Source: Zunongwangia sp. ESRF-bin46 (GTDB lineage Bacteria; Bacteroidota; Bacteroidia; Flavobacteriales; Flavobacteriaceae). From it: a stretch of DNA of 64,000 nt. Numbering within the stretch: position 1 is the first letter of the stretch; every line of letters begins with the position of its first letter. The DNA lies in the NCBI GenBank assembly GCA_002631855.1, contig NTLF01000014.1:485951-549950 (forward strand), given 5' to 3'. The notes beneath the pieces were generated by a model. It ran no database searches and was not told the origin of the DNA. It worked only from the letters and a program-made list of their open reading frames with translations. Positions 9,230 to 52,936 of the stretch are shown in pieces. Both the position numbers and the translations under genes were made by a program.

Positions 9230-9745
9230 CTATCCTTCAAATGTATCGATAAATTCTTTATAGAAATCGATAAAAGGTTGCAATACCTGTATCCAATCTG
9301 AAAACTGTAATGAATATTCGGTTATCAGTTTATATACATCGTCTTCGTATTTACCTGTTATTTGCGGTTCAAACGTATCTTTTTTTGCAATTTCATTTAA
9401 AAGAGCAATGGAATTAGAGTTTTTAAGAAAGTTATTGATATTTATATTCCCGCTTTCAATTTTAAACCTTTGATTGTTTTTAGAAAATAAAGTTGTCAAA
9501 TGGCTCCGTGTGGTTAGCTGAAAGGTCAATGATTTTTTTTGTGTTTGTATAACACATGTTATTAACCCATTAAAAGACGTACCAGTTTCATTTTTAATAG
9601 TAATTAAACACCCTTTATATTTTAGCTTTAAGAGATGTATAATATAGGGGCTTCTTGCGCCGCCTCCAAGATCGACCTTTTTTTCTTGAAAAGAATATTC
9701 TGCATTTTCAGTTTCAGCTATTCGTAAAAATTCAAATTCTTTCAT
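9230..9745 (-). CDS. hypothetical protein (171 aa)
   Basis: ORF in a minus-strand gene run; no motif recognised. Confidence 0.65.
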   Translation of the reverse strand: MKEFEFLRIAETENAEYSFQEKKVDLGGGARSPYIIHLLKLKYKGCLITIKNETGTSFNGLITCVIQTQKKSLTFQLTTRSHLTTLFSKNNQRFKIESGNININNFLKNSNSIALLNEIAKKDTFEPQITGKYEDDVYKLITEYSLQFSDWIQVLQPFIDFYKEFIDTFEG

Positions 9746-21541: not shown

Positions 21542-22150
21542 ATGGCTTTCGAATTACCGAAATTACAATACTCATTTGATGCATTAGAACCACATATTGA
21601 TGCTAAGACTATGGAAATCCATCATGATAAACACCATAATGGATATACCAATAAATTAAATGCGGCGATTGAAGGAACCGACCAAGAAGGAAAAACAATC
21701 GAAAATATCTTGAACAATCTTGATATGGACGATAAAGCTGTTCGTAACAATGGTGGAGGTTTTTATAACCATAAACTATTTTGGGAAATAATGTCTCCAA
21801 ACGGGGGTGGAAAACCTTCAGGTGCATTAGCCGAAGCAATTAACAGTGCGTACGGAAGCTTTGAAGATTTTAAAGAAAAGTTTTCTACAGCTGCTAAAGG
21901 TCAATTTGGATCTGGATGGGCTTGGCTTTGTGTTCACGAAGGTGGTAAAGTAGAAGTTTGTTCTACACCAAACCAAGACAATCCACTAATGCCTGGAGTT
22001 GGCTGTGGTGGAACACCAATACTTGGTCTTGATGTTTGGGAACACGCATATTACTTAAATTACCAAAATCGCAGACCTGATTACGTAAATGCATTCTTTA
22101 ATGTTATTAATTGGGATGAAGTATCAAAACGATACGAGCAGAATAAATAA
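21542..22150 (+). CDS. sodB: superoxide dismutase (Fe/Mn)
   Basis: [40 protein letters not shown]..., [24 protein letters not shown]. Confidence 0.96.
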
Positions 22151-22236: not shown

Positions 22237-22350
22237 TGCTCGCCACCCCAAATTTAGCGCATAAAAAAAGGTGGAAAGATCCACCTTTTTTTGCCCCAAA
22301 TCTACCATGAACTTAACCTACTTATGCTATGGTATGGGTCAAATATATAC
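22237..22350 (-). repeat. copy 1 of duplicated sRNA-like element
   Basis: Shares with 23213-23329: tgctcgc..., CCCAAATTTrGCGCATAAAAAAAGG, a CACCTTTTTTTGCCCCAAATC block, ACTTAACCTACTTATGCTATGGTATGG and TCAAATATATA. Confidence 0.9.
22258..22347 (-). ncRNA. predicted small RNA, copy 1 (promoter TATATTTG, TACCAT/ATGGTA hairpin, intrinsic terminator)
   Basis: Minus strand TATATTTG at 22347-22340, stem arms at 22334-22329 and 22308-22303, then AAAAAAAGGTGGATCTTTCCACCTTTTTTT terminator at 22292-22263. Confidence 0.6.
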
Positions 22351-22509
22351 TATAAAGTTTTTTATACTTGAATTTTTAGATTAAAGGCTTTTATTTTCGA
22401 TAAAAAGATGTTTTTACGAAGGTTTTTCCTTCATAAAAGAAAAAACATGTGAATGGTTTATTAAAAATTCAATATATTTTGCTTTTTGCATGATAAATAG
22501 TGCACTAAT

Positions 22510-22547
22510 GTTATTTTAACGTTACGCCAATGTAAATTTAACGTTAA
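22510..22547 (+). promoter_or_regulatory. four-copy GTTAA-like direct repeat array (11 bp period)
   Basis: GTTAT(22510), GTTAC(22521), GTAAA(22532), GTTAA(22543); TATATTTG -7 box at 22564-22571. Confidence 0.55.
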
Positions 22548-22595
22548 CTAATTAAATTTTTCATATATTTGGGTCTGACAAAAAATGAATGAGTT

Positions 22596-22877
22596 ATGAG
22601 TAATGATGAAAACAAATATTATATATTGAAGGTAAAATATTCGGTTCAGGAAATATCTGGAAAGAAAAAGAATGGCAAAAAATCAATTCATAAAAGAAAG
22701 AAACGGTATTTGGTTAAAAATCTTGATACGTTAGACAGCAAATTTCAAGATATTGAACACGCATTGACCGAAGTGGATACATCTACTTCTAAAAATATCT
22801 TTACTATTTTTAAAGATTATATAGTTCGGTTTGGTTCTAACTGCAATTCTACATATCATAGAATGTTACGAACTTAA
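22596..22877 (+). CDS. small basic hypothetical protein (93 aa)
   Basis: ORF with TATATTTG promoter upstream and terminator downstream; Lys-rich GKKKNGKKSIHKRKKRYLVK. Confidence 0.7.
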   Translation: MSNDENKYYILKVKYSVQEISGKKKNGKKSIHKRKKRYLVKNLDTLDSKFQDIEHALTEVDTSTSKNIFTIFKDYIVRFGSNCNSTYHRMLRT

Positions 22878-22900
22878 ACCTTTCTAATACATTATTTATA

Positions 22901-22936
22901 AAAAGCAAGCGATGTATATGTCGCTTGCTTTTTTTG
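22901..22936 (+). terminator. terminator of the 93-aa ORF
   Basis: AAAAGCAAGCGA-tgtatatg-TCGCTTGCTTTTTTT. Confidence 0.85.
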
Positions 22937-23212
22937 CTTTATATAAACTCTGTTTGCTGAAGAAGTATTTAGTAGATGGCTGCTTAACCATACCGTGAAA
23001 ATAATTTGTCATCATTATTTAAATCAGGCTTAAAAAAAGCAAATATGTGCTCAAGTGAAATTGTAAGCAGCTCGTTTTAAATTTTCTTCCTGTGATTTAA
23101 ATTTAGCTTATAGCTCGCCATCCTTCAGATTTTGGAAAAAAACCGAACGAGTTGTGGAGGGAGGGGAACGGCTCGCAACTATGTTTGTTCAAAGAAATAA
23201 AGTTTTGGTAAT

Positions 23213-23329
23213 TGCTCGCTAGCCCAAATTTGGCGCATAAAAAAAGGCGAACAAGTGTTCACCTTTTTTTGCCCCAAATCTTACCATAAACTTAACCTAC
23301 TTATGCTATGGTATGGTTCAAATATATAT
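23213..23329 (-). repeat. copy 2 of duplicated sRNA-like element
   Basis: Homologous to 22237-22350 along its length, including sequence past the terminator. Confidence 0.9.
23237..23326 (-). ncRNA. predicted small RNA, copy 2
   Basis: Minus strand TATATTTG at 23326-23319; TACCATA/TATGGTA stem (23313-23307, 23288-23282); AAAAAAAGGTGAACACTTGTTCGCCTTTTTTT terminator at 23270-23239. Confidence 0.6.
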
Positions 23330-23433
23330 CAATTTTTTAGTTTTACCATAAGGCTTTTCCTACTTTTGGATGAACTGTTTTATAAACTCGATTAACGGTT
23401 TGATTATAGCTAATTATGCTGTTTTTTAACCGT

Positions 23434-25332
23434 TTAGTAGGCTCTTTCTGGGTTTCCTTCGTAAAAATGAACATATGCTTTGTTTACCACTCGCTTTCCG
23501 CCATCGGTTGGATAATTACCTGTAAAATACCAATCGCCTAAATTTTTAGGACAAGCTTTATGTAAGTCATCCACCGATTGAAAAATCAATTTTATATCTG
23601 CGTTTATGTTTTCATCACTTATAATTTCAGCAATTTTATCTGAAACTTCTTGATCGCTAAAAGGAGCATATAGTTCTTTTACATAATTCACCACATCTTT
23701 GTCTTCGGTCTCTAATTGTTCTTTACATTTATGGTAAATCTCTTCAACAACATCATAAGTGCCTTGTTCTTTATGCAGTGCCAATGCTGCTTGAAAAGCC
23801 ACTAAATCTTCCAAGCGAGCCATATCGATACCGTAACAGTCTGGATATCGAATTTGCGGTGCCGATGAAACCACAACAATTTGTTTAGGGTTTAATCGAT
23901 CAAGCATTTTTAAAATACTCTTTTTTAAAGTTGTCCCTCGTACAATACTATCATCAATGATTACCAGATTGTCTGTAGGTTTAACAACACCGTAGGTTAC
24001 ATCATACACATGAGCTACAAGATCGTCACGGCTACTGTCTTCAGTAATAAAGGTTCGTAGTTTTACGTCTTTAATAGCAATTTTTTCGGTGCGAATTTTA
24101 TGTTGCTGTATCTGCTGAAGCCTTTCAGTAGTTAAATTTCCTTCTTCTTCAAGAATAGCTTCATTTTTCTGTTTGTTCAGTTCGTTTTGAGCAGCGTCTA
24201 GCATTCCGTAGAAAGATGTTTCAGCTGTATTTGGGATAAATGAAAACACGGTATTTTCGGTATCGTGATTGATTTCCTTTAAAACTCTTGGCATTACCAA
24301 ACGTCCTAACTCTTTTCGTTCTTCATAAATTTCTGCATCACTTCCGCGAGAAAAATAAATACGTTCAAACGAACAGGATTTACGTTCCAAAGGCTCTAAA
24401 ATTTGTTTTTCTGAAAAACTACCGTCTTTTTTCAAGATAATTGCGTGTCCAGGCTCTACTTCTTTAATATCCTCAAACGAAACATTAAATACCGTTTGAA
24501 TTGCCGGTCTTTCTGAAGCCACCACAATCACCTCGTCATCTTTGTAATAATATGCTGGACGAATTCCGGCCGGATCGCGTAAGACAAAAGCATCGCCGTG
24601 ACCCAACATTCCTGCCATGGCATATCCGCCATCCCAATCCCTAGCCGATTTTTTGAGTATTTTTTCAATTTTTAGCTTGTCGGCAATAAAAGGTGAAGCT
24701 TCCATTTTATTCAAGCCATCTTTTTTGGCCTTTTTATAAAGTTTACGCACGCCTTCATCTAGAAAATGCCCAATTTTTTCCATTACGGTAATGGTGTCGG
24801 CTTTTTCTTTTGGGTGCATCCCAAGCTTGATTAAGTTGTTGAATTGCTCAGTTGTATTCGTCATATTAAAATTACCGGCAATAATTAAATTACGGTGCAT
24901 CCAATTGTTTTGACGAAGAAAAGGGTGTACGTTTTCTACACTGTTAATGCCAAACGTTCCGTAGCGAACGTGGCCCAAAAGCAACTCACCAATGTAGGGA
25001 ATGTTTTTCTTTTGAGCGGCCACATCATTTTTGTATTCTGGGTGGCTTTGAAACTCTTCGTTAATGCGCCCATTAATCTGAGCAAAAATATCCTGTATGG
25101 GTTGCGATTTGTTAGAGCGAACTCGGCTTATGTAGCGTTCTCCAGGATCTACATCGAGCTTAATACTAGCAAAACCGGCACCGTCTTGGCCACGGTTGTG
25201 CTGTTTTTCCATCATCAAGTACATTTTATTTACTCCATAAAATGCAGTTCCATACTTTTCTTTATAATATTCAAGAGGTTTCAGCAATCGTACCATTGCT
25301 ATTCCGCATTCGTGTTTTAAAGCGTCGCTCAT
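23434..25332 (-). CDS. amidophosphoribosyltransferase-like (class II glutamine amidotransferase + PRTase), long variant
   Basis: HECGIAMVRL, QHNRGQDGAGFASI, GHVRYGTFG, and PRPP loop LVIIDDSIVRGTTLKKSI. Confidence 0.88.
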   Translation of the reverse strand: MSDALKHECGIAMVRLLKPLEYYKEKYGTAFYGVNKMYLMMEKQHNRGQDGAGFASIKLDVDPGERYISRVRSNKSQPIQDIFAQINGRINEEFQSHPEYKNDVAAQKKNIPYIGELLLGHVRYGTFGINSVENVHPFLRQNNWMHRNLIIAGNFNMTNTTEQFNNLIKLGMHPKEKADTITVMEKIGHFLDEGVRKLYKKAKKDGLNKMEASPFIADKLKIEKILKKSARDWDGGYAMAGMLGHGDAFVLRDPAGIRPAYYYKDDEVIVVASERPAIQTVFNVSFEDIKEVEPGHAIILKKDGSFSEKQILEPLERKSCSFERIYFSRGSDAEIYEERKELGRLVMPRVLKEINHDTENTVFSFIPNTAETSFYGMLDAAQNELNKQKNEAILEEEGNLTTERLQQIQQHKIRTEKIAIKDVKLRTFITEDSSRDDLVAHVYDVTYGVVKPTDNLVIIDDSIVRGTTLKKSILKMLDRLNPKQIVVVSSAPQIRYPDCYGIDMARLEDLVAFQAALALHKEQGTYDVVEEIYHKCKEQLETEDKDVVNYVKELYAPFSDQEVSDKIAEIISDENINADIKLIFQSVDDLHKACPKNLGDWYFTGNYPTDGGKRVVNKAYVHFYEGNPERAY

Positions 25333-52319: not shown

Positions 52320-52356
52320 GTTAATAATCGATTAACCGCACATTAAAATCGATTAA
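52320..52356 (+). promoter_or_regulatory. four-copy RTTAA direct repeat array (11/11/10 bp)
   Basis: GTTAA(52320), ATTAA(52331), ATTAA(52342), ATTAA(52352). Confidence 0.55.
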
Positions 52357-52381: not shown

Positions 52382-52389
52382 TATATTTG
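52382..52389 (+). promoter_or_regulatory. -7 box of the CAP-domain gene
   Basis: TATATTTG. Confidence 0.6.
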
Positions 52390-52426
52390 ACTCAGCATCA
52401 TGCCCCAAATTTGATGCCCCCGACTT

Positions 52427-52936
52427 ATGAATCTACTAAAAACTAGCCTACTGGTCATGGTACTATTTTGTACCGTGAGTTCTTGTAGCAAAGACGACAC
52501 AGCAGTTATTGAAGAGGAAACTGCAGATTATTCAATTGATGTGAACCTTGCCAACGAAACTGATTGGCAAATGGCAAATGAGATTTTAGATCTTGTAAAC
52601 CAGCACAGGACTTCCCAAGGACTTTCCACACTTAAACGCGATCAACAATATGCTTCTGCTTATGCGGTAGACCATACTTTTTATATGATCGACTTAGAGG
52701 AAATCAACCACGATCATTTTGATGTTAGAAAAAAAGGATTAAAAGACAGAGGCGCCAAAATTGTTGGTGAAAATGTAGCTTTTGGATATCCTACAGCCGA
52801 GGAAGTTGTTAATGCTTGGTTAAACAGCCCTGGTCACCGTGCGAACATTGAAGGTAATTATACGCACTCTGGGTTTGGTGTAATACAAGCACCTGACGGA
52901 AGATATTATTTTACACAACTTTTTTATAAAAAATAG
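52427..52936 (+). CDS. CAP (SCP/PR1) domain lipoprotein
   Basis: TVSSCSKDD lipobox; ILDLVNQHRTSQGLSTL, INHDHFDVRKK, GENVAFGYPTAEEVVNAWLNSPGHRANIEGNYTHSGFG. Confidence 0.94.
   Translation: MNLLKTSLLVMVLFCTVSSCSKDDTAVIEEETADYSIDVNLANETDWQMANEILDLVNQHRTSQGLSTLKRDQQYASAYAVDHTFYMIDLEEINHDHFDVRKKGLKDRGAKIVGENVAFGYPTAEEVVNAWLNSPGHRANIEGNYTHSGFGVIQAPDGRYYFTQLFYKK

Follow-up and report, generated by a model that had tools for sequence, protein, structure and literature searches.

sRNA-A, a putative bipartite-seed small RNA family lying in tandem between purF-like and sod genes of Flavobacteriaceae

Introduction

FopS (RF04319) of Bacteroides is a small RNA (sRNA) that occurs in 12–15 copies per genome, has its seed at an unpaired 5' end and is bound by RbpB, a protein of the RRM type (PMC11697453). 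The RNA described in this work, named sRNA-A, resembles FopS in being a multicopy sRNA of Bacteroidota of about 65–75 nt with an intrinsic terminator (PMC11697453) and in its predicted contact with targets near the start codon; the Rfam alignment of FopS also shares a local AGGUUAA-like stretch with sRNA-A. GGUUAA and AAGAUU-like stretches common to FopS were seen on the minus strand at 23236-23310 of the 64,000-nucleotide stretch of DNA analyzed (hereafter, the window), this likeness being too weak for a claim of homology. Identity of sRNA-A with FopS was rejected because the FopS model scored only 18.0 bits, its gathering score being 56. Unlike FopS, sRNA-A would hold its seed in the loop of an ACCAU/AUGGU hairpin plus a linker and forms one array and, in contrast with the FopS/RbpB system, the genome to which the window belongs gave no match to an RbpB-like RRM protein (PF00076). 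Since sRNA-A fails the FopS model and differs from FopS in seed placement and genome arrangement, we therefore propose it as a new family of sibling sRNAs.

OmrA and OmrB are adjacent paralogues with a common seed. These enterobacterial RNAs have been named as sibling sRNAs (PMC12559287); they differ from sRNA-A in phylum, seed placement and neighboring genes, and sRNA-A reaches up to six copies. The Hfq-dependent RNAs SisA-D and CrfA of Caulobacter, which have been shown experimentally, parallel the present set in being homologous sRNAs whose common core pairs with 5' UTRs and which are sequestered by another RNA (PMC12559287); no sequence relation of these RNAs to sRNA-A is claimed, and the case for sRNA-A is inferred only. 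Within the Flavobacteriaceae, Rfp18 of Flavobacterium psychrophilum is an sRNA with a predicted regulon that is described as using its third stem-loop as pairing region and as having metalloprotease targets (PMC9723704), in contrast with the one hairpin plus terminator of sRNA-A. An RNA of the sRNA-A type may already carry an Rfp number in that transcriptome study of F. psychrophilum (PMC9723704).

Results

Structure of the sRNA-A units

Two units of the same layout were located on the minus strand of the window, copy 1 (about 75 nt; 23239..23315), whose 5' end was inferred from the -7 box, and copy 2 (about 74 nt; 22263..22336). Copy 1 is preceded by a -7-type box of the Bacteroidota, TATATTTG (23319..23326), the promoter being assigned by consensus only. 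The stem arms TACCATA (23313-23307) and TATGGTA (23288-23282) enclose the 18-nt core GCATAAGTAGGTTAAGTT (23306-23289), and the linker GATTTGGGGC (23280-23271) leads to A7 (23270-23264), the terminator stem GGTGAACA/TGTTCGCC and T7 (23245-23239). The corresponding RNA would present an ACCAU/AUGGU hairpin with loop GCAUAAGUAGGUUAAGUU and the linker GAUUUGGGGC, followed by an A7-stem-T7 intrinsic terminator. In copy 2 the box TATATTTG (22340..22347) and the core (22327-22310) are followed by a linker whose last position is 22293, then by A7, the terminator stem GGTGGA/TCCACC and T7 (22269-22263). The box-stem-core-linker-terminator arrangement reported in an initial annotation of this DNA was therefore present as described, at 23315-23239 and 22336-22263.

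The linkers of both copies differ by 1 nt (GGTAAGATTT vs. GGTAGATTT); an indel of this length shifts any reading frame and therefore no conserved peptide is expected. In the search of the own genome a 116-nt unit matched its sibling along the full length with 90% identity (E 8.7e-36), a likeness beyond chance. Only these two full-length copies were found there, three other matches being just 19–25 nt long.

Some features around the copies deserve mention. Downstream of the terminators (23238-23215 and 22262-22236, minus strand) the two window copies stay alike, with ATGCGC(C/T)AAATTTGGG...GCGAGCA; such likeness was otherwise seen only in close relatives, for instance L016, L022, L116, and L120 (GGGGTGGCGAGC or similar), and the stretch could lengthen the hairpin by pairing with GATTTGGGGC. 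An ORF of 93 codons without Pfam match lies between both copies on the plus strand (22596-22877), and the distance of about 1 kb between them is unusual when compared with around 200 bp in most arrays.

Conservation of the family

A scan of a genome collection placed the exact 18-nt core at no fewer than 120 loci belonging to other species and, among the matches listed, the records bearing it corresponded to Flavobacteriaceae (Maribacter, Zobellia, Flagellimonas, Aquimarina, Robiginitalea, and others), in arrays of one to six copies. The layout of the family consists of the box, ACCAUA-loop-YAUGGU, the linker GAUUUGGG and the terminator. A TAnnTTNR box was found 13–15 nt upstream of the stem (CCA) in all 379 distinct copies, and an intrinsic terminator (A-run/stem/T-run) in 353 of the 379, with 125 different paired 5' stem arms, while loop and linker were nearly invariant. 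Two observations previously made on the window copies alone, namely that the terminator stems differ yet pair and that their arms drift around a nearly fixed loop and linker, thus hold across the family. The accompanying idea of selection on structure needs one refinement: the terminator arms vary and still pair, but the ACCAU/AUGGU stem shows hardly any variation (a single A-U to G-U change) and for this reason gives no covariation evidence. Loss of stem pairing in homologues, which would have refuted the initial reading, did not occur.

The loop reads GCATAAGTAGGTTAAGTT in the first group of loci and, in a large genus of this family taken to be Flavobacterium, mostly ACATTAGTAGGTTAAGTT. Three recurring types of paralogues were distinguished by promoter and linker, T1 (GGGGC), T2 (GGGGAAAA), and T3 (GGGACG), the linker of T3 copies being changed to GATTTGGGACG. 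T3 is the sod-proximal copy and is preceded by a long, conserved promoter of its own, TTATTTC.CACAATACCAGTAATTTAG (for instance at L008:3341 and L013:5166), pointing to a second regulator. With a promoter of its own (box by consensus only), an intrinsic terminator and no coding capacity, the unit has features expected of a trans-acting sRNA, and the window units are probably tandem paralogues of one such non-coding family of Flavobacteriaceae.

A covariance model (R1), whose building and use beyond the window had been suggested from the start, matched 41 of the 51 genomes sampled from the own family and none in other families of the order; in the rest of the class three genomes gave marginal matches only (E 0.06–0.1), which were treated as chance. 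As anticipated in the initial annotation, no named family was recognized: for the window locus and ten related loci no Rfam family reached its threshold, the best sub-threshold hits being generic terminators. A literature search with part of the core sequence retrieved only an unrelated Candida paper.

Candidate targets

The complement of the loop, AACUUAACCUACUUAUG, ends in AUG, and that of the linker is GCCCCAAAUC. Complementarity to both was evaluated at a small ORF downstream of scoB, which encodes about 29–57 codons in two length types and ends in KK(V/L/I)F(M/L)(L/M)-like residues. Loci were chosen by scoB synteny in 30 genomes, the ORF being present at 16 of them. In 14 of these 16 loci the leader was predicted to pair with loop and linker at p ≤ 0.02 as compared with dinucleotide shuffles. 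Taking one locus per genus (13 genera), the mean duplex energy was −12.9 kcal/mol for the loop seed and −12.8 kcal/mol for the linker seed vs. −7.9 and −7.5 kcal/mol, respectively, for shuffled seeds (0/500 in both cases), and the leaders also differed from 32 gene starts of the window (P 1.7e-5 and 6e-6). Within the window's genus, the start codon of the small ORF itself lies under the complement. A trans-acting sRNA is expected to have a conserved seed able to pair with the leaders of mRNAs from unlinked genes, and such complementarity is found here at a synteny-selected gene; these leaders constitute the strongest pairing evidence because the loci were not picked by complementarity; the idea of this target itself, nevertheless, arose from complementary matches in other genomes. 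The small-ORF loci comprise L326 (own genome, G000:C14, around 361.5 kb), L308-L330, L249, and L254-L265. No Pfam match was obtained for two of these ORFs tested, and no small ORF was detected downstream of scoB in Flavobacterium. A multi-site sponge was also considered for the region downstream of scoB and dropped, the region being the leader and start of the conserved small ORF.

The second candidate lies in the window itself and is a gene for a CAP-domain (PF00188) lipoprotein (52427..52936, plus strand). Its leader (52382..52429, plus strand) contains a TATATTTG box and the hairpin GCATCA-TGCCCCAAATT-TGATGC followed by CTTATG, which includes the start codon. The loop of this hairpin, GCCCCAAAU, displays the linker complement, CUUAUG lies at the start codon, and the start codon is not buried in the hairpin. 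The leader is the same in five genomes and ranked first for pairing among 56 gene starts of the window, a rank that is not independent because the gene was found through the motif. Another possible target is the mRNA of a secreted protein (L248, G676), in whose leader GCCCCAAAT lies in a potential hairpin loop and ACTTATG plus AACCTACTTATTATG at the start codon.

Searches at a wider scale gave no support. In the own genome, near-matches to the loop complement showed no enrichment (42 vs. 97 for the reversed control), and VAACCTACTTATG coincided with a start codon at 5 of 29 places (4 in ORFs of ≥90 aa) against a baseline of about 7%, which was not significant. The sRNA loop of Flavobacterium reads CATTAGTAGG, with one base changed, and a co-variation test in this genus revealed no targets in which the start-codon context had changed correspondingly, the matches being mostly coding. 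An excess of GCCCCAAAT was discarded as a target signal, as most of it fell within coding sequence or on the strand opposite to it.

Shared promoter repeat

Direct repeats were observed on the minus strand upstream of copy 1 (TTAATCGA-N13-TTCATC; 23369..23395) and copy 2 (TTTATCGA-N12-TTAATC; 22379..22404), and the same motif appeared upstream of the CAP gene (52330..52356, minus strand). A fourth repeat (9248-9274), located where an ORF ends, may be due to chance. In total, TTnATCGA-N11-14-TTnATC gave 4 matches in the window vs. 0.05 expected, and a relaxed tandem form was present upstream of 217 of 370 sRNA-A copies as compared to 1.5% of random stretches. Since the motif was defined on sRNA-A promoters, only the CAP and small-ORF sites test it: the strict form was found at 4 of 5 CAP loci and at five small-ORF loci in or near the window's genus (L322, L324, L326, L328, and L330), and was absent from most small-ORF loci of other genera. 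Its presence at several promoters suggests, as the simplest reading, a common transcription factor, which would act on several of these promoters through the upstream repeat; co-regulation is thereby inferred.

Proposed mode of action

Each sRNA-A copy would be transcribed from its own promoter and ended at its intrinsic terminator, expression being inferred. The RNA would offer two contact segments, the hairpin loop CAUAAGUAGGUUAAGUU and the single-stranded linker GAUUUGGGGC. The loop is predicted to pair with an AAC(C/U)UACUUAUG-like sequence at or over the start codon and the linker with (G)CCCCAAAU in the leader of the target mRNA, the putative targets being the CAP lipoprotein gene of the window and the small ORF downstream of scoB. 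Complementarity at the targets exceeds that of controls; pairing inside the cell is inferred from it. With the loop covering the start codon and the linker clamping the leader, translation initiation would be repressed, and because pairing is placed over the start codon a block at this step is the most likely outcome, although repression is also inferred.

The same pairing might instead activate or stabilize the mRNA, for example by opening the CAP leader hairpin. The folding of this leader with GCCCCAAAU in its loop is compatible with such an effect, and promoter motifs common to sRNA and target would suit co-activation equally; we consider it unlikely, however, given that the CAP start codon is outside the hairpin and that a complement lying over the start codon, both in CAP and in the leaders of the small ORF within the window's genus, suits a block of initiation better.

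sRNA-C and sRNA-B

Two further RNA candidates carry sequences related to the contact segments. sRNA-C was found in the own genome, at a separate locus (L222), and in six further genomes (L342, L349, L351, L353, L363, and L366). It has a promoter-like box and a terminator, and displays CAUAAGUAGGUUG and CGAUCAAAUUUGGGGCG (with one G to A change in one) flanking a variable hairpin. Its two helices showed 95.8% of paired cells and 7 doubly changed pairs, with a covariation score reached by 0/500 shuffles. As sRNA-C is structurally different and still bears the sRNA-A segments, both segments are therefore kept on two scaffolds, and sRNA-C would offer the same two contacts as sRNA-A.

sRNA-B is conserved in the window's genus and comprises a TATATTTG box, a single-stranded AAC(C/U)UACUUA, a hairpin and a terminator. 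All stem cells of the hairpin (100%) are paired, with 6 doubly changed pairs, and both its loop CCCCAAAU and the 5' AAC(C/U)UACUUA remain unchanged. sRNA-B carries complements of both sRNA-A segments; conserved complementary segments are what a sponge is expected to have, and it may act as a sponge for sRNA-A, sequestration being inferred. The order of its segments forbids one continuous duplex, so that a sponge of this kind would use one segment at a time or two molecules.

Extreme conservation of two unpaired segments could also reflect binding sites for an RNA-binding protein, which sRNA-A would titrate in a CsrB-like manner or which would recognize both sRNA and mRNA, and the display of the complement in hairpin loops of sRNA-B and the CAP leader is frequent for protein sites. 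Against this, sRNA-B and the target leaders bear the complement and not the same sequence, as pairing predicts, and the own genome is devoid of matches to an RbpB-type RRM protein (PF00076), which makes a protein site quite improbable.

Genomic context

At nearly all of the at least 120 loci the array is flanked by a purF-like gene of the same orientation and by a convergent sod, with acpP-purN-rnhA-pfkB farther out on one side and an addA-like gene plus kbl on the other. In the window the two immediate neighbors are a PurF-like gene with a class II glutamine amidotransferase domain (23434..25332, minus strand), co-oriented with sRNA-A, and a convergent Fe/Mn superoxide dismutase gene (21542..22150, plus strand). 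One syntenic locus, one orientation and one to six copies across Flavobacteriaceae support the proposal in the initial annotation of a sibling sRNA pair.

Among the matches listed, the arrays always follow the purF-like gene immediately and in the same orientation, a position compatible with cis elements, such as an attenuator or parts of the 3' UTR belonging to the purF-like mRNA, or elements that buffer transcription where two genes converge. Every copy, however, has its own promoter box at a fixed distance, copy 2 of the window lies about 1.1 kb past the purF-like gene, termination does not require an invariant internal loop and linker, and sRNA-C repeats both segments elsewhere, so that very little room is left for a cis role. 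A repeat at the DNA level or a mobile element (REP, MITE or degenerate insertion), to which the inverted-repeat character and the multiple copies might point and which the annotation had named as a refuting outcome, was rejected by synteny and copy number as scarcely tenable, with just two full-length copies in the own genome, a single locus in a single orientation throughout the family, 0 matches to the core in viral contigs, and a conserved promoter and terminator.

Discussion

A trans-acting, base-pairing sRNA with a bipartite seed, accompanied by candidate targets, by sRNA-C and by a possible sponge, is in our opinion the likely explanation of the locus, in the absence of transcript data. 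The units, their conservation and synteny, the promoter box, the terminator and the segments shared with sRNA-C are observed in the sequences, and so are the covariation in sRNA-B and sRNA-C and the complementarity of the targets above controls. How these pieces would work together is a more tentative matter. One to six siblings, sRNA-C, the sponge sRNA-B and the CAP and small-protein targets might form, under the shared repeat, a feed-forward loop in which sRNA-B copies the hairpin-loop display of the target; no RNA chaperone was identified for these bacteria in the present analysis, and we regard this circuit only as a possibility that falls short of a favored one.

In marine and freshwater habitats the Flavobacteriaceae are major degraders of polysaccharides, and some of them are pathogens of fish. 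To our knowledge, little is known about regulation by sRNAs in this family. If the present reading is true, the family would possess an sRNA of deep conservation whose contact segments and locus are defined, together with candidate targets, a candidate sponge and a candidate regulator site; RNAs detected in 41 of the 51 family genomes sampled would gain an Rfam entry, and a whole unstudied control network would become testable.
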